The notes beneath the pieces are model-generated. The model ran no database searches, had not been told where the DNA came from, and saw only the letters and a list, made by a program, of their open reading frames with translations. The position numbers and the translations under genes are program-made. Positions 2,213 through 13,580 of a stretch of DNA of 13,580 nucleotides are shown here, one piece after another. Source of the stretch: Acanthamoeba castellanii str. Neff (lineage: Eukaryota; Discosea; Longamoebia; Acanthamoebidae). Every line of letters starts with the position of its first letter. Position 1 is the stretch's first letter. The stretch covers positions 39,018 through 52,597 of the forward strand of contig NW_004457242.1 of NCBI RefSeq assembly GCF_000313135.1, in the 5' to 3' direction.

Positions 2213-2214
2213 TA
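2213..2214. repeat. Target-site duplication TA (left)
   Basis: TA directly precedes CACTGCC at the left end and is matched by TA at 11640-11641 after GGCAGTG. Bases further out differ (GC on the left, CT on the right), so the duplication is 2 bp unless TA belongs to the inverted repeat itself. The host reading frame is restored by keeping exactly one TA, which supports duplication. Confidence 0.75.
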
Positions 2215-2236
2215 CACTGCCAGGATGGTAGATGGG
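2215..2236 (+). repeat. Left terminal inverted repeat
   Basis: 22 bp starting CACTGCCAGGATGG. It pairs with the right end with three mismatches, all transitions. Two of the three are CpG losses on this side (CCAGGATGG against CCGGGACGG on the right). Weaker similarity continues inward (GTTTT..CCACC). Confidence 0.85.
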
Positions 2237-2730
2237 CGAAAGCTGGTTTTGGCCACCAAGACAGATTCCACCTTTTCCCGCCCAAAAAGGTGACCCAGAG
2301 ACGAACCAGCTCGCCTTGGTGGGCAAAAGATGGAACATTCCATCACTCCCGTCCACCTTGGGTGCACCTAGGTGGACAGAAGACGGAATGTGCCATCTTC
2401 AAGTCCACCTTGGGTGCACCTAGGTGGACAGAAGATCGAACACACCATCTTCAAGTCCACCTTGGGAACACCTTGAGGTGGGAATGAGAGAGAAGCACAT
2501 TGTGAGGTGGACATGACCACAACAACCATGCCTTCAAGGTGGGAAGAAGGTGATTTTGTTGGTGTTGCATATATTGAATACACACATTACAGCAAAGTGT
2601 TGTGGTCTGCCCTCTAGCCTGGCTGTTGTTTGCTGTCCACTGTCCACCATAGCTGCTGCCATACATCGCTGTCCACCATCCACTGTCTGCCATCCACCAT
2701 CCCTGCTCGATCACTCTGCACAATGTGGAG
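2237..2730. other. Left subterminal non-coding region
   Basis: No gene is seen here. The stretch holds scattered CCACCTT and AAGGTGG motifs in both orientations (near 2268, 2351, 2403, 2455, 2470, 2503, 2536) and a GGTGACC motif at 2290 that recurs near the right end at 11547. Such clusters are the usual binding sites of the second protein of CACTA elements. The stretch 2620-2720 is rich in TGTCCACCAT-like repeats. Confidence 0.6.
2351..2480 (+). repeat. 52-bp subterminal tandem repeat (2.5 copies)
   Basis: Copies begin at 2351, 2403 and 2455 (partial) with GTCCACCTTGGG. Each full copy contains an inverted GTCCACCT...AGGTGGAC pair that could bind a dimer. The two full copies differ mainly at one place, where one has TGTG and the other CACA; both can come from CGCG. 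Confidence 0.85.
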
Positions 2731-3580
2731 TTAGTGAATATGCATGTACTGTGGTGTTGGCATACTAGGCCTGTAGGTGATGTAGATCTTGATGTTCTGG
2801 CGGGCCATCCAGACTTGCTCTGTATCAAACTTGAGTGCAATGGTTCCATTTGCCATGGGGTCCCACTCTAAGTTGTCTGCTCCTGTTACAGATCTGATCA
2901 CAGCCTCTAGGGCTGCAGGCGGAGGAACAGCCCAGGTGGGCAGATTGCTAATCCGCTGGTGGAGCTTGTCCCTGTTGACCACCTTCAGGTCTGCTGGGTG
3001 ATGCATGATGCTGTTCCAAGGAAGCCCAGAGCTTGTGAGCAAGACTAACCATTCACAATTTACTACAATTGCAGAGGAACTGTGAGCAATGAATTCAACA
3101 AGATATGAAGCAAAGAAAGATGTACCATCATTGACACAGGCAGGGGCAGGTGATTGCTGGGCGTGTTCAAGTGCACATTCAGTCAGCACCCACTTCTGCC
3201 CGCTCTTCCTAGGGGCCAAGTGCTCACAGACCAAGTCAATCTCAGCCTCAGTCAGCTCATCCAGATCTTGGCAAGGCTGCTGGGCGCCGGGCTGCGTATT
3301 GGCCAGGCACACAAGTTGCTTTGCAGCACTCATGGCCTGGTCATCCCCTTGAGTCAACCACTCCTGGGTCAATGCAGATGTAGTTTGTTGTTTTTTCATA
3401 CAAAGAACAGCATCAGCTGGAGGCTGGGGTCATGTTGTGGTCTCAGTGTCGACCAATGAATCACACTTGCACCACCTGCAACTTCAAATGTTAGTAAATA
3501 CATAAGAGGAATGATGATATGGAAAATACCTTGATACCATTGAATAAAGTTGTCATATCTTGCTTCTCATCTTCACTGTC

Positions 3581-3724
3581 CTGTTCACTGTCCCATTCAC
3601 TGTCCCATTTGCTGTCCCATTCACCATCCTGTTCACTGTCCTGTTTGCTGTCCTGTTCACTGTCCCATTCACTGTCCCATTCACCGTCCTGTTCACTGTC
3701 CTGTTCACCATCCTGTTCACCATC
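3581..3724 (-). repeat. 12 copies of a 12-bp coding repeat in the acidic region
   Basis: Twelve perfect-length units; plus-strand forms include CTGTTCACTGTC and CCATTCACCGTC. They encode D-(G/S)-(E/K)-(Q/W) repeats. All variation lies at three dinucleotides per unit, each TG, CA or CG, so the ancestral unit was CCGTTCGCCGTC, coding Asp-Gly-Glu-Arg. The Gln/Trp alternation is then two outcomes of one CGG arginine codon. Confidence 0.93.
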
Positions 3725-4747
3725 CCATTCTTTGAACTCTTTCTTCTTTGCCTTTTTCTTTGCAGCCTGCAAGAAAAGATGAGAACAAAGTTGTGTGTGT
3801 TATGCACTAAGTGTTTGTGTGTGTTATGTGCTAATGTACCACATGTGCCTGGGGTGAGTTGACATACTTAAAGAGACTCACCACTTTGCTTCCAGGCTTG
3901 GCCAAGCACGCTTTGGCCAGGTTCATGTCCCTCCACCATGTGACCAATCACTTAGAATGGCTGGGCTCAGTGGGAGGATGCAAGGGGTCCTCAAACACCC
4001 ACTCGTTTGCCATTCTGAAGGCCATCTGAATGAGTGTATCCCTGAATTGTTTATCAACTGCACATGCAGGAAGTCAGTAAATAAATGGGTTAAAGCACAT
4101 GAAAGGTCATGTACCTGTCACTTTTGCCTTGAACTCAGCTGGCTTCTTCACTGGCTTCAGCTTTTCAAACACACATGCAAGCAGCAACTTCAGTGACTCA
4201 GTGACTGGCTTCCATCACTTGCACACCTGAAGAGAAAACAGCTCAGTAACTACAACTAAAACCAAACACTACTAACAACCATACTGCTGGAATGAAGCTC
4301 TTGCTGATCCAATTCTTCATGCTGGCTGATAGCTTCACTTTTTCCTTCTCCTTGACCTGCTTGATGAATTCAAGTTGGAGCTTGTTGCCATTGCCTTGCT
4401 TGACCTTTGTGATGTTGAAGTAGATGTGGGCAACTTTGACTTGCACCAGGTTGGTGACATCATCCTGCTCCATGCTGTGCTGCAAATTGACCTTGGTGAT
4501 TAGCAGGTTGATTAGCAGCTGATGGGTCTCCTCTTGGCCCTTCCACAGCTTGTCCAGGCCTGTCACCAAGGCCTTGGAAAAAGCAAGAAACTCTGTTGTG
4601 TGGAATGTGTAAATCTTTGTGATTGATTATGAAAACAATAATGGGAAAAAACAATGAAAGCAAACCTTCATTGGTGACCATGGATGGGGCCCTTGCCATA
4701 GCTGTTGCATTGGTTGATTGATTTTCCACAAGCAAGATTAAATAAAG

Positions 4748-5033
4748 TAAAATTAGAAATCACATAGAAGGAATTTCTACTATGTCAAGTAAATGAAAGC
4801 AAAACACACCTCCATTCCTCAGATTGGACAACAATCCCTTTGCTGAACCCTGTACATTGCCTGATTAGTGAAACAGAAAATTAACATTAGCAAAATTAGA
4901 AATTGCATAGAAGGAATTTCTACTACGTCAAGTAAATGAAAGTGAAATGCACCTCCATTCCTCAGATTGGATGACAATCCCTTTGCTGAACCCTGTATGT
5001 TGCCTGATTAGTGAAACAGAAAATTAATATTAG
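4748..5033 (-). repeat. 143-bp tandem duplication inside the decayed gene
   Basis: Copy 1 is 4748-4890 and copy 2 is 4891-5033. Every difference is a transition. Five are CA versus TG pairs (4761/4904, 4800/4943, 4805/4948, 4829/4972, 4855/4998), one is TG versus CG (4783/4926), and two are single C/T differences (4748/4891, 4885/5028). Each copy holds a 40-nt segment with acceptor and donor-like sites on the minus strand. Its phase fits neither neighbour, so it may be intron sequence. Confidence 0.93.
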
Positions 5034-5301
5034 AAATTGAATGGTTGTTTGAGTGAGATTGGGTACCAAAGGCATTCTTCTTCATGATCATGGGTAAGCA
5101 GTCAGCAGCAAAGATGTACTGGCCAGGAGGAAGGAGGAGGAAGACTTGTGCTGCCACTACTCCACTGATTGTATGGGAGCAGAATACTGATCTTGTCAAT
5201 GAGCCACAGCTGGCCTTTATGCTGTCAACCCTGGTTATTTCCCAGTTTTAAGTACCTTTTTTCTTGGCTTGCATACCGCGGAACCAACATCCAGAATAAC
5301 T

Positions 5302-5375
5302 GCGATTTCTGCGGACTTCTTTTTATTTTGAAAAAAAATACACTTCAGAAATAAAAAGAAGTCCGCAGAAATCGC
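5302..5375. repeat. Perfect 27-bp hairpin
   Basis: The arm 5302-5328 (GCGATTTCTGCGGACTTCT plus TTTTATTT) is exactly complementary to 5349-5375, with a 20-nt loop. The arms hold CpG sites that survive identically on both sides, in contrast to the CpG-stripped neighbourhood. It could be a nested foldback element, a regulatory cruciform or a source of small RNA; the sequence does not decide. Confidence 0.92.
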
Positions 5376-5735
5376 GGTGTCAGGAAAATTGTTTTCTCTT
5401 TATTTCTACGGACGACTTCTAAGAAGAAAATGATAAACAAATAAAAAGAAAACTTGCCCCCCCTCAACATCTCCCTTCTAGAGGAGATGTTCAAGGCACT
5501 CAACACGCACAACAACACCCATTCCATTCTGTGCTGGCGTTTTTTTACAACCACTCAACACTCACCCACTACTTGACCCCCCTCCATCTTCTTCATAAAG
5601 AAGAATAAAATACTTTGTCTTCCTTTGTGCACTTAAAATCAATTCTTCCTGTTTCTTGTCTCTTTTTCTCTTTTCTTTTCTTGCTTCAATTTTTCTTGTT
5701 TCTTTTTCTCTTTTTTTCAAAAAAATGTAAAAAAG

Positions 5736-6060
5736 TCAGGCACTCAGTACACCTTCCAAATACAGGTTTACAGCTGTAACCATAAATGCTGACATGGCTT
5801 CTTTTTTTTTTAATAAATTCATTTTCTTTGTTGCTGCACTTTTTTGCTTTGAATATTTTGCATTCTTCATCCACAGAACCCACAAGCTTGGTTCTGCAGA
5901 TGGCAGGAAGGTGCTCTGCAGGCTGTTTGGAATATTTACTTTCAACTGTATAAAATCACCACTCAGTGTGAGTCATTTGAGGAATGCTCCTTTGTCAACA
6001 AGAAGTTGCCACAGAAAGCAGCCCAGGACACACCAAGCTTCTTTTCCTTACCACCCTCAG
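5736..6060 (-). other. Possible decayed coding remnant
   Basis: On the minus strand a frame reads EAWCVLGCFLWQLL, then an in-frame TGA, then SGDFIQLKVNIPNS and more down to about 5736. The composition is protein-like and the stop again sits where CGA would give Arg. A second minus frame in the same place (AEGGKEKKLGVSWAAF) is equally open for a while. Neither joins the next exon in phase, so this may be upstream exon material of the left gene or a coincidence. Confidence 0.3.
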
Positions 6061-8082
6061 CAAACACACATAGGGCTCTTCAAGAGGCAGGGAGAGCTTT
6101 GCCCTTCAATTAAATAAAAGAGAGCAGGCCCTTCTGTGCCTTGATTTGTGTGCTGCAGATGATTGAGTGCATGATTTGATGAGTATGTGTGTTAATTGCT
6201 TTCAATTAGCTGTTAATTTTGCTAATCTTGCCTTTCTCCAGTGGCTGAGCTGCAATGCCTGAAAATGGAGTATGTTTCCTTCCCATTGCTCTCCCCACTG
6301 GGTTCATTGTGCAATCCATGCAGGTATGGCAGCATTGCCCAATATCATAACCCCAAGGAGTGCAAGAGGTGATTGTGGAAGAAATGCAAGCCATGCCCAT
6401 TGCTGTATGTCAATCCACCTTTCCCATTTACTTGATTTCTAATGCCCTCAAGGGCTGATTGTGAGAGGAGGCTGCATCATTATGCAGGTAAAAACAAGTG
6501 GAAGCAAATATGCAAGGATGTAGTGCAATGGTGTGGCCTCAAGATGGTATGTGTGATTGTGTGATTGTGTTGCTAATCTACTGATGTTGTGTTGTTGCTG
6601 CAGGTGTACCTGCTGAATCTTTGTGTAGACTGACAAGACATTGTTGATGTCAATGATCAACATCTCTACTTTGGTGATTGTGAAGAATGGTACTTTGTTG
6701 CTGTTATCTGCATGTGGTTGTTTAATGATGTGCACAAGGGCTTTGAAGACCATGCCTACATGAATGACCTGGATGGCATGATCAATGACTTCTACTGCTG
6801 GCTCTTTGCACACCAGATTGACTTTGCCTTTGACCTGGACAAGGAGCATGTGCTCCTTTTTCAAATCTTCTTGATGTACTATTGCAGGAGGTAATTGCGC
6901 CTCCTGCTTCCTGTTATGTTTTTGCGCCTACTCACTTCCTTTACACCCCTTCCTTCATCTGCTTAGATACAAGCAGAAGCAGATGAAGGAGGAGATGCAA
7001 AGGAAGATTGCTTGTGACAAGTATGAGGCAAGCTCTATGTTGATGATGCTTGCCTTGAGGTATGTGTTGTATGTAAATCTCCTTTCTTGTCTCAATTTGT
7101 TTTTGTGTAGTGCACAAGACCAGTACAGCAGTGAATATGAGATGCATGTGGAAGAAGAGAAAGAAGAGAAAGAAGAAGGTGAGGTGGTTGCTGAGGCTGC
7201 CAGCCTCCTCATGGTACCTTCCTTTCTTTGCTCTTTACTTGTGCGCCTGATGCTCCTCCTTTATGTATTTTGTACACAGGAGGTGCATGGACTTGATGCT
7301 GAGATGATTCTTGCATGTGCAATGCATGTGCTTGGTGGCTACAAGGGGCTCATTCTGTTTGGTGACAGTCCAAACACCAAGGCGCTTGCCTTCACCATCA
7401 ACAACAGCCCCAAGGAGCTCATTCATTGGCACTTCAACAAGCACATCAATCACCTCATCACATTCAAGCCAAGCAGCCAAATCCTCTACATGAGGTGCAC
7501 CATTTATTGGTGCTCAAGGACGATCACCTACTTCAACAAAGCCTACAGCTTCATCAAGAGATGGTATCCTCCCTGTCATATCCTCTTGTTTTGTACATCT
7601 TACAATTCCTTCTTCTCAGTCATGTTGCAGGGACAGGAGATATGGAGCTCTTTTGTCCCACATGCTACTTCAAGATGACCAATGCACTCTTCTTCAGTGG
7701 CCATGATCCACTTGGCCTGCTCTTTGGTTTGCTCCCCTCACACAATCTCCAATAAACAGTCATTTGCTTTGGGGGGGACAGGTATGGTGATGAACAGGCA
7801 GAAGTGGTGCGCTGATTGTGAGATTTGGATCTTGCATTGAGGCTGGCAGCATGAACAATCTGAACGCCATGCCAGGGCAGCCAGAGAGAAGTGTATGCTT
7901 GCTTGCTTTTGCTCTTTGCTCTTTGTGAGCTAATGTGAACACTTTTGTTAACAGGCGCAAACAAGAAGCTGGCTGCAGAACAGTGATCACTCAAGTGAAA
8001 GCACCAGGCCAGCAATGAGGGAGACAAAGGTGACAACAACAAGTGCAACAGAGTTTTCAGCTACAGCAAGGAAGAGAAGGTT

Positions 8083-8186
8083 GACAGAAGCAAGAGCAAG
8101 GTCAAGAGCAAGGTCAAGAGTGAGGTCAAGAGCAAGGTCAAGGTCAATAGCAAGGTCAAGGTCAAGAGCAAGAGCAAAGAAACAAT
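8083..8186 (+). repeat. Coding repeat of GGTCAAGAGCAA units
   Basis: About eight imperfect 6- and 12-bp units of AGCAAG and GTCAAG encode a basic Ser-Lys-Val-Lys tract in exon 9 of the transposase. One unit has AGTGAG where the others have AGCAAG, a TG/CA pair again compatible with an ancestral CpG. The tract is followed directly by an acidic stretch (DKLEDKDNEQMEDK). Confidence 0.8.
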
Positions 8187-9952
8187 AAATGATGTTGAGG
8201 ACACACAAGGAGACAAGCTGGAGGACAAGGACAATGAGCAAATGGAAGACAAGGCAATCATGGCCATGGCAGCCATCAACACTGAGAGGGCTGATGACAA
8301 TGATGATGCACACATTCCAGAGGACCCAATGGGTCCAGCAACAGAGGAAGAGCTTAATGAACATGATCTGCCTCTGGTACGTTTGCTGTTGTTATTACCT
8401 TTATTCTTACTGACCTCCTATGTTCACTTCTAAAACGTAGGCACATCACAAGTGTGTAGTGCAAAGACAGGGAGCTGTAGAGTGTGCAATAGTGGACCTG
8501 AAGAACAAGGTGCTCTATGAGCACATGCAGCACAATGATGCCACCAAGCATGCAATGGAGGACCTGCTTTGTATGCATTGGAATCCACTGTTCTGTTTTG
8601 GGATGATTGCTGAGAGTGTCCATGTGCTGAGTGAGGCTGGTCAGGTACACCATGAACAACATTATTTTTGTTGTTTTCGTCATTTTCAGTGATTGACTTG
8701 CGTGCAGATGATGTACCCACCAGTTGCATGGCGTTGGGCTCATGTCAGTCAGGGGACACTCAACTTTGTGTCCCCAACCAATGTGATCCACGATCACTAC
8801 AAGCTCAAGGTAGACTTGAGCAACAAGCACTTCTGTTTCAAATGGAGTGCAAGGCTCAAGCACCTGTGCAACTGCAAACAATTCAAGCAGTGCAAACAGT
8901 ACAACACCCCACAAAAACCCTCAATACTAACTTACTAACTTCATGTTTGTCTTAAGTTACATGTGGAGCAGGGCCCACATGCAAGGGTGAAGGTGGAAGG
9001 ACTGCTGGCTCATCCTTCCCATTTTTTATATTGATGTGTTCTGAAGTGTTGTTGGGATCTACATGTCCTTCGCCAACACATCAATGGACAAAATGGAGAT
9101 TGCCAAGTCAAGATACCTCCTCTGCCTCATGCCACAGGACGTCAACCTCTTCAATGCCTTGCAGATCATCATCATCATGCCAATGCGCCTGCTCAAGCAC
9201 AGATACAACATCTACTTCAAGGCCAACAACACCACACGCCACTGCTACAGCTCCATCTACTGTATCCTCAGCGACCATCCCTCACAGGCGCTGTGTGCCA
9301 GTACATTCAACAATTGTTCAGTTTGTCTTTCTTCAAGTTAACTTATGTTTTATTCACATCACAGGATTAGCACAGGGCGGCTGGGGGTCATGCCAATACT
9401 GCCACAACCTCTCAGCCTTCTTCCACGAGGTGGAATGGCCAATCAAGGTTGGCAGCCAAACTGTGCACCGGCCCCAGCGACACAGCAACTACTGGAGCGT
9501 CTACAACGCTCACATCGCAACACTCAAGGACTCCAACAAAGGAGTCCATGGCAAGGTTGGCCCTGCTGATGAGAAAATAAAGGTGCATGGCTGGGGCCAA
9601 CAGGTAAGCCCATTTTGGGAGCTCCTCTGGATGCATGAATCGTTTTACGATTGCTTTGGTATCTGTCTACTGCATATTGAGCACCTTGGTCTTCTCAAGG
9701 TGTGTTGACCTGATCCTTACACAACTTTTAACTTTATTAACTTCTTCTTCGTTCAAAGAGACACTTGCAGTACACAAGCACAGCACATGGGCTTGAGGAA
9801 GAGCTCAACGAGGCGTTCAAGGCTTTCCCACCATTCCCAGGAAAGCAGAGCTTTGCAAACCAGACACAGATCATCCAGCATAATCCAAACATACGTTTTC
9901 CTTTTTCTTTCTTCTCTGTTCTTCTCTGCGCAACACTCACAGCCGTCATTGC

Positions 9953-10048
9953 GTACGACACGCACACGACCAACGGACACGCGCACGACCAACGGACACG
10001 CGCACGACCAACGGACGCGCACGCGCACGCACACATGCACACGCACGA
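9953..10048 (+). repeat. CGCACGACCAACGGACACG tandem repeat in an intron
   Basis: Three 19-bp units followed by a CGCACG microsatellite occupy the intron between transposase exons 14 and 15. It is dense in CpG and marks where base composition turns GC-rich. Similar CACGACCAG motifs recur in the 3' repeat at 11300-11455. Confidence 0.8.
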
Positions 10049-11295
10049 CCAACGACACGCAGGGCAAGGTGGTGGTGGCGGGGCTGACAGGAGGCGAAAT
10101 GGACAGCTTCCTGCAGGTCGCGGGTGAGCGATCCGCAGGAGCGCGAGTGCTGGCAAATCCACGTCGATATCGTCCGCCTCCTGCAGCAGGAAAGCTTCGA
10201 CGCCAACGACCTCGAGAAGCTCGAGAAGCTGACCAAGAGATGGAAACATCTCATGGTCAAGTTCTACGGCGGCGTTGCCGAGCGGCAGCGAGCGACGAGC
10301 TCAAAGAAGACGCGGTCGAAGAAGCGGTCGAAGAAGCGGTCGCGGACGGCCGAGACGGCGGCCAGCGACACGACGACGAGCGGAGAGAAGCCACTCAGCT
10401 TCAAATTTCCGAACTTCGAGGTCGCGCAACACTGGCCGGAGTTGATTCGCTTCCTCGGGCCCCCATGGGTGCAGGACACGCGCCTGTGGGAGCAGCGGCA
10501 CCTCGCGGCGAAGATGACCGGGCATAGGACGAACCAGATCAACACCGAATGTGCAATTCTTGTGAAGGTACGGCTTTGTTGCATGTTTTTTTAACGTTTG
10601 CTAACCTCTGGTTTTGTTGTTAAGACGCACCAAAAGGACACCGTCATTTGCCACCGAGCATACGCTGGGCTGCCCCGCGTGAGCTCTGTGGATGGGTCCC
10701 GGAAGGAACCCTACACGCTCAGCGTTCGTGGCACAACAACCAGCATCACGAGGGACCGCAGGCGCAACCTCTTCGACGCAGTCAGCCGTGAGCTGGGCGA
10801 GGGCGTCCAGATAGCGGACGACATCACCTCGCACAAGTCGGCCCACTACTACGGCCACTTCCTGCGACCAGGCGATGGGATCGCCTTGCGTGTTCCCGAA
10901 GACTATCCAAACGTACGATAGTGTGCTAGTGTTGTGTTTCGCTTCTCATTACTAATTCTTTATTTAATTGTAGATACGGTTCATCATCGACAACTCACGA
11001 CACGCCATCCTCGACGAGTCCGAGACGCAGTGTGTCGTGATCGGAAGGATATCTCGTCTGCTTCGCATTGCCTGCAACAACGTGGTGAAGGCGTGGGTCG
11101 AGCTCGAGCTTGGCGATCTGCGCGGCGTCAGCGATGGCTTTCTCGAGTTCCGGCTCAGCCAGCGACGGTTCTACCTTCCCTTTGGGTGGAATGGATGGAC
11201 CGTCGCCAAGCGCGTCCACCTCGTGCAACAACATGCGGGCTTGCTCTATAACCATCGCGTTAGGTGGCACCTGGGCGACAGGTGGGCCACACCGG

Positions 11296-11492
11296 CGAGC
11301 GGCGCACGACCAGCGGCGTGGAGCACGACCAGCGCGATCGGCGGCGCGGAGCACGACCAGCACGACGACTAGCGCCACCAGCACGACGACCAGCGGCGCG
11401 GAGCACGACCAGCGCGACCAGCGGCGCGGAGCACAACCAGCACGACGACTAGCAAGGTGGACAGGAGGTGGACAGGAGGTGGACAGGTGAAG
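11296..11492 (+). repeat. GC-rich 3' repeats: GCGGCGCGGAGCACGACCAG units, then AGGAGGTGGAC units
   Basis: About four imperfect copies of a unit of about 20 bp span the end of the transposase frame; the TAG stop at 11370 lies inside the array and the same CACGACGACTAG recurs at 11441. From 11456, three GGTGGACAGG units form the right subterminal cluster, matching the GTCCACCT motifs at the left end in inverted orientation. Confidence 0.8.
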
Positions 11493-11617
11493 ATGGAATT
11501 GTCCACCTTTTTCAATACAACCATTCGACCTACTCAAGGTGGAAAAAGGTGACCTCAATGTGCTGGCTTTTGGTGGTTTTTCCCGTCTTGTGAAAGGTGG
11601 AAAACAGCTATCTTTTT
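11493..11617. other. Right subterminal non-coding region
   Basis: It carries GTCCACCTTTTT (near 11499), CAAGGTGGAAAAAGGTGACC (11534) and AAAGGTGGAAAAC (11593), mirroring motifs of the left end. No gene is seen. Confidence 0.65.
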
Positions 11618-11639
11618 CCCACCTACCGTCCCGGCAGTG
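11618..11639 (-). repeat. Right terminal inverted repeat
   Basis: Read on the minus strand it starts CACTGCCGGGACGG and pairs with 2215-2236 at 19 of 22 positions. This copy keeps both CpG sites that are lost on the left. Confidence 0.85.
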
Positions 11640-11641
11640 TA
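11640..11641. repeat. Target-site duplication TA (right)
   Basis: TA directly follows GGCAGTG and matches the TA at 2213-2214. Confidence 0.75.
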
Positions 11642-12128
11642 CTCACCGCACAGTCCTTGTCCGGGTTCCTCGGGCACGAAGACCCGCGCCAGCACTCAGT
11701 TGTGCAGACGGTTCTGTTGAAGGAGACGGAGATGCTCTCGGCCGAGTCCACAATGTCCGTGAGCTGCTTCGTGTGGTCTGTTCCCCCCGCCACGCAGGAA
11801 GGAGGTCCACTGCAGTGGTCAGCCAGCCCAGTGGGCGTCACCGCCGGCGGAAAGTGTGGACGTACCCAGAGTGGCCGAGCGCCTGTGCTCCCCATCAAGG
11901 GCCAGGGAGAGAAACAGAGGCTCGTTCGCACCGTGCGGGACGTAGTGGACGTCCCTGGAGCAGAGAGGTGGTAAGCAGGTGGAGCAACAAGACGCTAAGA
12001 GAAGGGGAGGCATCTACCATCATCCAGGAGGTGAAGTCGAGGAAGTCGGGCCGCGTTTGGGCGTGCAGGGCGCCCACAAAGAGGAGCACCAGCAGCAAGC
12101 GACACAGCACAGGCGAGACGCTCATCAT
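11642..12128 (-). pseudogene. N-terminal half of the interrupted secreted protein gene
   Basis: The ATG at 12128 starts a clear signal peptide (MMSVSPVLCRLLLVLLFVGA, then LHAQ as a likely cleavage region), so the product is secreted. Exon 1 is 12128-12018 (donor ATG|GTAGAT). Exon 2 is about 11954-11866 (donor TGG|GTACGT, with a good GGCTGAC branch site in the 56-bp intron after it). Exon 3 starts at 11809 and runs into the transposon at 11642. Exon 3 is Cys-rich with an NRT sequon (SFNRTVCTTECWRG). Problem: in the phase joining exons 1 and 3, exon 2 contains TGA at 11897-11895, while a different frame of exon 2 (VHYVPHGANEPLFL) looks more like protein. Either the gene had already decayed or a splice site is misread. 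The family is unknown. Confidence 0.72.
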
Positions 12129-12393
12129 CGTGGCAGCAAGAGAGGGAGACAGACAAAGGAAGTGTGCTTGGCGCAAAAACTGTAGTAGCCGTCCGAAAGG
12201 AAGGAAAAGAAGGGCGCGGTTCTACTGTGGAGTCCCCACCGAAAGTTCTACGACAAAAAATATAATATATATTTTAACATTTTTAACATAGCCTCACTTG
12301 TTAACATATTTATTTCCATTTTAATGCTGCCCCCAGAATTTGCGGGATTTCAAAAACAATCTTTTTTTGTTTGTTTTGCAGATCCTGCACGAG
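12129..12393. promoter_or_regulatory. Divergent promoter region with AT-rich core and 5' UTR intron
   Basis: 265 bp lie between the start codons of the secreted-protein gene (minus) and the histone-fold gene (plus). An AT-rich block at 12255-12320, including ATATAATATATATTTTA, offers TATA-like sequence in both directions. A polypyrimidine tract and TTTTGCAG|ATCC at 12381 look like the acceptor of a 5' UTR intron of the plus-strand gene. Confidence 0.55.
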
Positions 12394-13580
12394 ATGGAAT
12401 TGGATCCGATTACAGACGACGCCTTGGCGGATGTTGTGGAAGAGGAGGGGGTGGTAGTCCAGCGTGCCCAACATGCGCCACGCGATGGTGTGGACAGTAT
12501 GAAATTGGATGAAGATGAAGATCTTGAGGACGATCTTGATGAGGACGAAGATGGAGGCGAATCCATCAAGGGCAAGGAGCGCGTTGGAAAGCGCGGGCGT
12601 AGCGTGAGCACAGATCTGGGTGCGCCTGGGGCCAAGCGAAGCGGGAGGGTCAAGCGCACCAAGGCCAAGAAGAGCTGCCTCAACACCCTGCCGCTGGCGC
12701 GCGTGAAGCGCATCCTCAAGACCGACCCCGATGTCAAGCTCATCAGCAACGATGCCGCCCTCCTCGTCTGCCGCTCAACTGTACGCTGCCGCAGCTCTGT
12801 CTGGCCGCCGCCACACGCGCCTCCTCATACATCAACACCACTTGGCTTTTTTTGGTCTTTGCTGCAGGAGCTGCTGTGCGAGCTGTTGATTAAGAAGGCC
12901 TACGAGCACACGCAGCACGAGCGAAGGAAGATGGTCTACTACCGCGACGTTGGTACTCAACCGTTATCCATTATCTTCTTCTTCAGCGCCGAATTGACCT
13001 TGTGTGTGTCCGTCGTGTGTGCCGTGACTGTGGCAATGGGCAGCAAGAACGGTCGCGCAGGGAGACAACCTCGACTTCTTGCTTGAGGTGGTGCCTCCTC
13101 GTCCCGAGATCGACGTCATCAAAACGAAGAAGCAATCGGCCAAGCGCGAGGCCGAGGCGTTGCCGCAGTCACCGCCAAATCCCACTTCAACGGCAACGGC
13201 AACGACGGCAAGTGCGGCGACGGCCACTACTATTTCTCCACCAGCAGCAGCTTCGTTGTCATCTGCCCCCACTCCATCGCAGGCATTGCCTTCCCCTGCG
13301 GCCCCGGTCGCCGCCGCAGCCGCCGCGACGGCCAAGCCACCGACGCCCGCTCCTCCGGGGCGACCACCCACCAGGCGAGGTCGCGGGCGACCGCCTTCCA
13401 GCGTACCACCGCCAACTCGGCTTCCGCCCACTGCCACAGCCGCCACAGCCGCGGCCGCAGCCACATCTACGACCCCGACACCCACGCCTACGACAAGTGT
13501 AGGCCGGCCACCACAATCCTTCGCGCCTTCGGGCATCCCAACACCGGCGATGGGACTTCCTCCGCGAGGCACACTCTACG
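12394..13580 (+). CDS. Histone-fold protein of the POLE4/Dpb3/CHRAC1 (NF-YC-like) type, partial
   Basis: Exons: 12394-12780, 12868-12952 and 13044 to the window edge, with introns of 87 and 91 bp. The ATG at 12394 (MELDPITDD) follows a splice acceptor at 12381, so an upstream non-coding exon is likely. The N-terminus is acidic (DEDEDLEDDLDEDEDGGE), then basic (GRVKRTKAKK). The histone fold starts LPLARVKRILKTDPDVKLIS and runs through STELLCELLIKKAYEH and YYRDVARTVAQGDNLDF to LLEVVP. Known proteins with this fold pair with an NF-YB-like partner in DNA polymerase epsilon, in CHRAC chromatin remodelling, or in the CCAAT factor. The LARVKRI and YRDV wording is nearest to Dpb3/POLE4. A long Pro/Ala/Thr-rich tail follows, with an AT-hook-like RRGRGRPP, unusual for POLE4. 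The protein acts in the nucleus. Confidence 0.85.

Follow-up and report, generated by a model that had tools for sequence, protein, structure and literature searches.

Strand-phased CpG loss in copies of an Acanthamoeba castellanii mobile element suggests a CpG-directed mutator resembling fungal RIP

Introduction

Repeat-induced point mutation (RIP) of Neurospora crassa changes C to T in repeats, in tight clusters, each event hitting a single strand; in about 91.9% of the clusters the changes are either all C-to-T or all G-to-A, as stated in part of one report (PMC7296669). The process is called fungal-specific, acts between mating and meiosis, and mostly prefers CpA, according to an excerpt of another (PMC2621366). 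In the basidiomycetes Rhizoctonia solani AG8 and Microbotryum, a CpG-biased RIP-like hypermutation with CpG-to-TpG change in repeats has been described in the excerpted text of PMC4014442 and PMC4352252. The latter regards the CpG signature as the outcome of methylation and subsequent deamination, and neither text contains the word "strand".

Silencing methylation in Acanthamoeba castellanii is likewise mostly CpG and enriched in repeats; the excerpts of the two reports concerned (PMC12344493, PMC12210455) describe methylation and, in general terms, a later decay of viral inserts by point mutation, not strand-phased CpG mutation. In strain Neff, methylation is predominantly CpG and enriched in repetitive and intergenic DNA. 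The enrichment concerns LINE and LTR elements, with none for DNA transposons as a class and high methylation of some inserts (PMC12344493, in part). Dinucleotide composition was not substantially shaped by 5mC in the available part of a cross-species study (PMC12695648). Among the best matches in open-licence PubMed Central, no report was found that places a RIP-like process in Acanthamoeba or in any non-fungal host, nor one of strand-coordinated CpG mutation of repeats.

The element described here resembles the N. crassa system in its one-strand clusters of C-to-T change, but its target is CpG and its host is an amoebozoan. With the basidiomycete hypermutation it shares the CpG target in repeats, whereas Acanthamoeba is not a fungus. 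With the methylation described above it shares the genus, the mostly CpG target, and the repeats.

Results

The element and its copies

The window is the whole 13,580-nt stretch of DNA analysed. It carries one copy of a mobile element, designated W (Table 1), and two young sister copies on other contigs, C200 and C228, are about 90% identical to it. Having inverted termini and a short target duplication, the element agrees with the definition of a terminal-inverted-repeat DNA transposon; TA stands on both sides of W and C200, the left edge of C228 being TC instead. In a Pfam search, no transposase or other match above the curated cut-off was obtained among the element ORFs submitted. One element ORF has 18 similar proteins; two of them are named from A. 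castellanii Neff, one being 84% identical over 35% of the query and the other 73% over 24%. The genome comprises 38.4 Mb in 250 contigs, and its profilin gene, which matches PDB entry 1f2k (profilin II, from A. castellanii) with 262 bits over 125 residues, likewise indicates the genus Acanthamoeba.

Copy C200 has both ends present and lacks a segment of about 500 bases that W carries near 7.5-7.9 kb, while C228 is without 5218-5892 and everything to the right of about 9205. Near window positions 3470-3472, about 460-470 bases are present in C200 and C228 and absent from W. Older relatives of the element were found on contigs C234, C2, C172, C241, C186, and C73. Two minus-strand ORFs flanking the element (1929-2285 and 11623-11931) may be one host gene split by the insertion, and a host ORF to the right of the element, at window positions 12340-13086, has a CBF/NF-Y histone-fold match.

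Table 1. Coordinates of the element, the array, and the stretches of CpG loss and retention (window positions).
Feature	Position	Strand	Remark
Whole mobile element, inverted-repeat, about 9.4 kb	2215..11639	.	Left end common to C200 and C228, right end to C200
Left terminal inverted repeat	2215..2249	+	26/35 bases match the right end
Right terminal inverted repeat	11605..11639	-	Imperfect match to the left end
TA, possible 2-base target duplication with 11640-11641	2213..2214	.	At the left edge
12-base array	3581..3724	.	12 copies; variable dinucleotides TG/CA/CG
Predicted exon containing the array	3531..3769	-	Putative splice sites, read by eye
CpG-decayed element body	2471..9300	.	W retains 45/461 recognised CpG-derived sites, array excluded
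Right part of the element, CpG largely retained	9751..11639	.	W retains 154/164 sites with CG in another copy
Strand-phased tract	6147..7327	+	W: 70 TG, 1 CA, 3 CG at CpG-derived sites
CA tract	5205..6069	-	W: 35 CA, 0 TG, 11 CG; mostly only C200 aligns, W and C200 not separable
C200 losses in the right margin	9956..10815	+	22 consecutive TG over 860 bases among kept CpGs

CpG-rich ancestor and extent of CpG loss

When 2401-9200 is divided into 17 bins of 400 bases, 16 have a ratio of observed to expected CpG of 0.00-0.23, the exception being 5201-5600 with 0.70; in bins left of 2401 and right of 9600 the ratio is 0.64-1.34. Over 2471-9300, the three young copies diverge pairwise by 9.1-9.7%, and their non-CpG divergence is 0.42-0.60%. 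Differences within the set CG, TG, and CA make up 529 of 566, 545 of 570, and 518 of 546 in the three pairs (93-96%). Double differences of TG against CA number 194, 216, and 175 in the three pairs over the same interval, and any other double change occurs at most 7 times.

These sites descend from CpG. Outside the array, a CpG origin is certain for 396 triple-aligned sites. The mean count of the six mixed TG/CA patterns is 36, which implies about 73 further, hidden CpG sites. The ancestral density, by our own arithmetic, is estimated at about 9 CpGs per 100 triple-aligned columns (5182 in all), which is close to the 158 CpGs per 1539 remaining in the right end of the element.

The change is specific to CpG. 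Relative to C-to-T or G-to-A change at C/G sites outside CpG, CpG loss per C is higher by a factor of about 292 in W, 98 in C200, and 315 in C228. These ratios rest on 5, 7, and 3 non-CpG changes and become 125, 47, and 108 at the upper 97.5% count limit, while the recognition of sites overestimates CpG retention and makes them conservative on that side. W has TG and CA in the proportion 208:208 overall, and of 533 states scored where another copy has CG, 0 are TA; a CpG becoming TG or CA only is what passive 5mC deamination predicts.

At sites where the third copy has CG, the strand choice of its two sisters agreed in 53 cases and differed in 68, which rules out a site bias shared between copies; the copies thus decayed independently of one another. 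No flanking-base preference was found at lost CpGs, 5' or 3' (0.51, 0.51, 0.51, and 0.46 for 5' A, C, G, and T), and flanking context is therefore not the cause of strand choice.

The limits of the decay were also compared. C200 retains 46 of 49 CpG sites at 2500-2999, 62 of 93 at 3000-3499, and 1 of 23 in the following 500 bases; the edge of the decay therefore varies between copies. Of the sites in its right end (9751-11639) that are CG in another copy, C200 retains 154 of 178. C2, an older copy, has 12 CpGs in about 1.2 kb of this right-end stretch, versus 125 in W.

Strand phasing in the young copies

Neighbouring losses tend to lie on the same strand. The cleanest set comprised only sites proven to be CG by the other two copies, and neighbour agreement was compared with shuffles. 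In W, 210 of 307 neighbouring losses are on the same strand (shuffle mean 153.6), which was reached by 0 of 20,000 shuffles, and its longest same-strand run of 29 was reached in 0 of 5000. C228 gave a similar result, with 163 of 255 (mean 127.1; 0 of 20,000), and C200 a weaker one, with 120 of 208 (mean 103.8; 286 of 20,000). Under looser ascertainment, agreement was 300/415 (72%) in W, 217/319 (68%) in C200, and 253/361 (70%) in C228, and simulations of independent decay with that ascertainment gave 50%, with maxima of 57, 57, and 60%, respectively. In a stricter set, confined to sites that are CG in another copy, W (109/158, z 4.9) and C228 (66/112, P 0.03) are phased, and no phasing was found in C200 (36/64, P 0.43). 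The sites proven by the other two copies, together with the simulation, exclude ascertainment as the origin of the runs. The strand-independent loss of sites that passive 5mC deamination would require was thus not observed.

Same-strand agreement fades by about 160 bases, and a two-state model under the looser ascertainment gave mean patches of 236 bases in W, 218 in C200, and 100 in C228. Single tracts can be much longer (Table 1). The right-margin run in C200 was scored at sites that are still CG in another copy, in effect W. Over the right margin as a whole (9301-11639), C200 has 27 TG:4 CA (P 3e-5) amid 157 retained CpGs, and W has 10 CA:3 TG (P 0.09). When 12 overlapping stretches were tried (margins, left edge, and body), the only significantly one-sided ones were the two in the right margin of C200 that cover 9751-11639.

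Older copies and a second family

Older copies were scored at sites proven by the three young ones. C234 (132/175, 0 of 5000 shuffles), C2 (107/172, P 0.001), and C241 (41/60, P 0.02) are phased, and C172 (53/98), C73 (18/34), and C186 (9/14) showed no significant phasing. A run seen in the pair of W and C172 (62/69) is due to W, as C172 alone is not phased. Altogether, 6 of the 9 copies have clusters on one strand at P<0.05 uncorrected, as expected when each event hits one strand, and 3 of the 9 are not significant.

Phasing was scored in two repeat families. The second, a pair of reverse-transcriptase elements, has 20 of 27 neighbours on the same strand (P 0.012). On contig C73, positions 401807-402205 (within L053) hold a reverse-transcriptase match with seven in-frame TGA stops, which is what decay of CGA to TGA would give.

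The array

The array was the starting point of this work. A sequence-only reading had counted 17 TG, 18 CA, and 1 CG at its variable dinucleotides, and this count is exact for the 12 units tiling 3581-3724. Bases 1, 4, 5, 8, 11, and 12 are invariant in 12/12 units. Position 1 (unit bases 2-3) has 7 TG and 5 CA in W; position 2 (bases 6-7) has 10 CA and 2 TG (binomial P 0.039); and position 3 (bases 9-10) has 8 TG, 3 CA, and 1 CG. A unit with every CpG intact would encode Asp-Gly-Glu-Arg and is now D-G/S-E/K-Q/W, decay in its codons leading to Gly/Ser, Glu/Lys, and Gln/Trp. In C200, 1 of the 30 variable sites is TC.

That reading took the array for a record of CpG decay and proposed comparing it with the same array in other copies. 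The comparison revealed CpG-intact versions in both sisters, CG being retained at 13/39 variable sites in C228 and 8/30 in C200, and the reading was right in kind. It had further described the losses as falling on the two strands in nearly equal numbers. Over the three copies this holds for positions 1 (16:15) and 3 (13:12) and fails for position 2, with 4 TG:22 CA (binomial P 0.0005). Flanking context was rejected as the cause of this skew, since the TCGC sites in the rest of the element are divided 41:37, and selection on the protein is unsupported, with 58 silent and 62 changing losses when three minus-strand ORFs are taken as coding and the array is excluded. With neither cause apparent, some units, a good part of them, had probably begun as CA at position 2 before the copies parted.

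The losses had also been called independent. Inside the array, strand choice indeed appears random, with no phasing (same-strand neighbours 13/34 in W, 15/25 in C228, 12/21 in C200, pooled 40/80). Across the element it is phased, with a strong signal in W and C228 and a weak one in C200, and the phasing of the array is below that of the element (Fisher P 0.015). As a guess, unequal exchange among units, whose number differs between copies, could scramble tracts here, and the array would be a small and perhaps scrambled sample of an element-wide process. Contrary to the view that sibling repeats in one molecule make outside alignment needless, it took the sister copies to tell decay apart from older unit variants and to expose the strand phasing.

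Discussion

A CpG-targeted mutator acting on one strand at a time, in the manner of fungal RIP, is probably the best explanation of these data. Each copy of the element would have arrived CpG-rich. Later, and independently of the other copies, CpG cytosines in the body of each copy would be turned into T, many on one strand per event, over a span of roughly 100-250 bases and sometimes about 1 kb. Replication would then fix the stretch hit as all TG or all CA, and repeated events on either strand would erase nearly all CpGs while other bases barely change. The hits within one tract would be simultaneous, as a same-strand tract implies that one strand received numerous lesions during a single replication cycle, a density that slow deamination is not expected to supply. 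The enzyme responsible would most simply be a DNMT1-type CpG DNA methyltransferase, or else a deaminase following methylation, and the process may serve repeat silencing.

The genome has two places with adjacent predicted BAH and C5-methyltransferase matches and other predicted methyltransferase matches. Together with the same-strand tracts, the one-stranded clusters of Neurospora RIP, and the CpG methylation of repeats in strain Neff, these matches make a RIP-like, CpG-directed process the best-supported account. A compact C5-methyltransferase match also lies at L046 (contig C215) 3256-4684, on a 68-kb contig whose ORFs look virus-like to the eye.

As in RIP, G:C to A:T transitions are concentrated in the repeat and the flanks are spared, the right 1.9 kb of the element being largely spared as well. 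The process was not classified as RIP because 93-96% of the changes are in the CpG set, without the CpA preference of the ascomycete form, and because the host is Acanthamoeba and not a fungus. Several observations count against a RIP-like account. Three of nine copies are not significantly phased, C200 is weak, and the array is unphased. The right 1.9 kb is also repeated, yet largely retained. Methylation enrichment concerns LINE and LTR elements, not DNA transposons as a class, and the cited part of the cross-species study gives 5mC little weight in dinucleotide composition.

Slow deamination of 5-methylcytosine, one CpG after another with the strand left to chance, in a methylated repeat, was the mechanism of the sequence-only reading and is unlikely. 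It accounts for change confined to CpG, for the overall equality of TG and CA, and for the missing TA. CpG methylation of repeats is known in A. castellanii from parts of the reports introduced above, and the array, which is without strand runs, and the three older copies lacking significant phasing also favour it. It does not account for the six phased copies, three of them young and three older, nor for the long runs on a single strand, 22 sites in C200 and 70 of 71 sites in W. The ratio of CpG to other change is also high for it, at about 100-300; in mammals it is about 10-15.

Improbable, too, is an AID/APOBEC-type deaminase of single-stranded DNA that attacks strands exposed in replication or repair and prefers methylated CpG. 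Strand-coordinated clusters are the usual mark of this class, and the tract scale of 100-240 bases suits it, but the change is restricted to CpG and the flanking-base preference is absent. Genome searches for APOBEC_N, as well as for TET/JBP, gave no match, with the controls equally silent. A resected break is expected to leave TG and then CA on its two sides; the two largest tracts of W stand in the opposite order, one of them being inseparable from C200, and tract order was rejected as a mark of resection.

The last explanation, that the array arose by amplification of units already carrying CA or TG and not by decay, draws on the position-2 skew without context bias elsewhere and on the differing unit numbers (12 in W, 13 in C228, 10 in C200), and is very improbable, since amplification of such variants alone is refuted by CG in both sister arrays and the same exchange of CG, TG, and CA runs throughout the rest of the element.

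For the CpG-directed, RIP-like process preferred here, we propose tentatively, and short of calling it probable, that Acanthamoeba has an active, repeat-directed, CpG-specific hypermutation of one-strand tracts, that is, a RIP-like defence outside fungi, presumably run by CpG methyltransferases. The strand-phase test needs only three sister copies, so that bursts of mutation can be distinguished from slow decay in any genome that has been sequenced. If the proposal is true, CpG loss in methylated repeats could not be read as a slow clock. In an amoebozoan with DNMT1-type enzymes, it would mean that the trait predates fungi or arose repeatedly from CpG methyltransferases.
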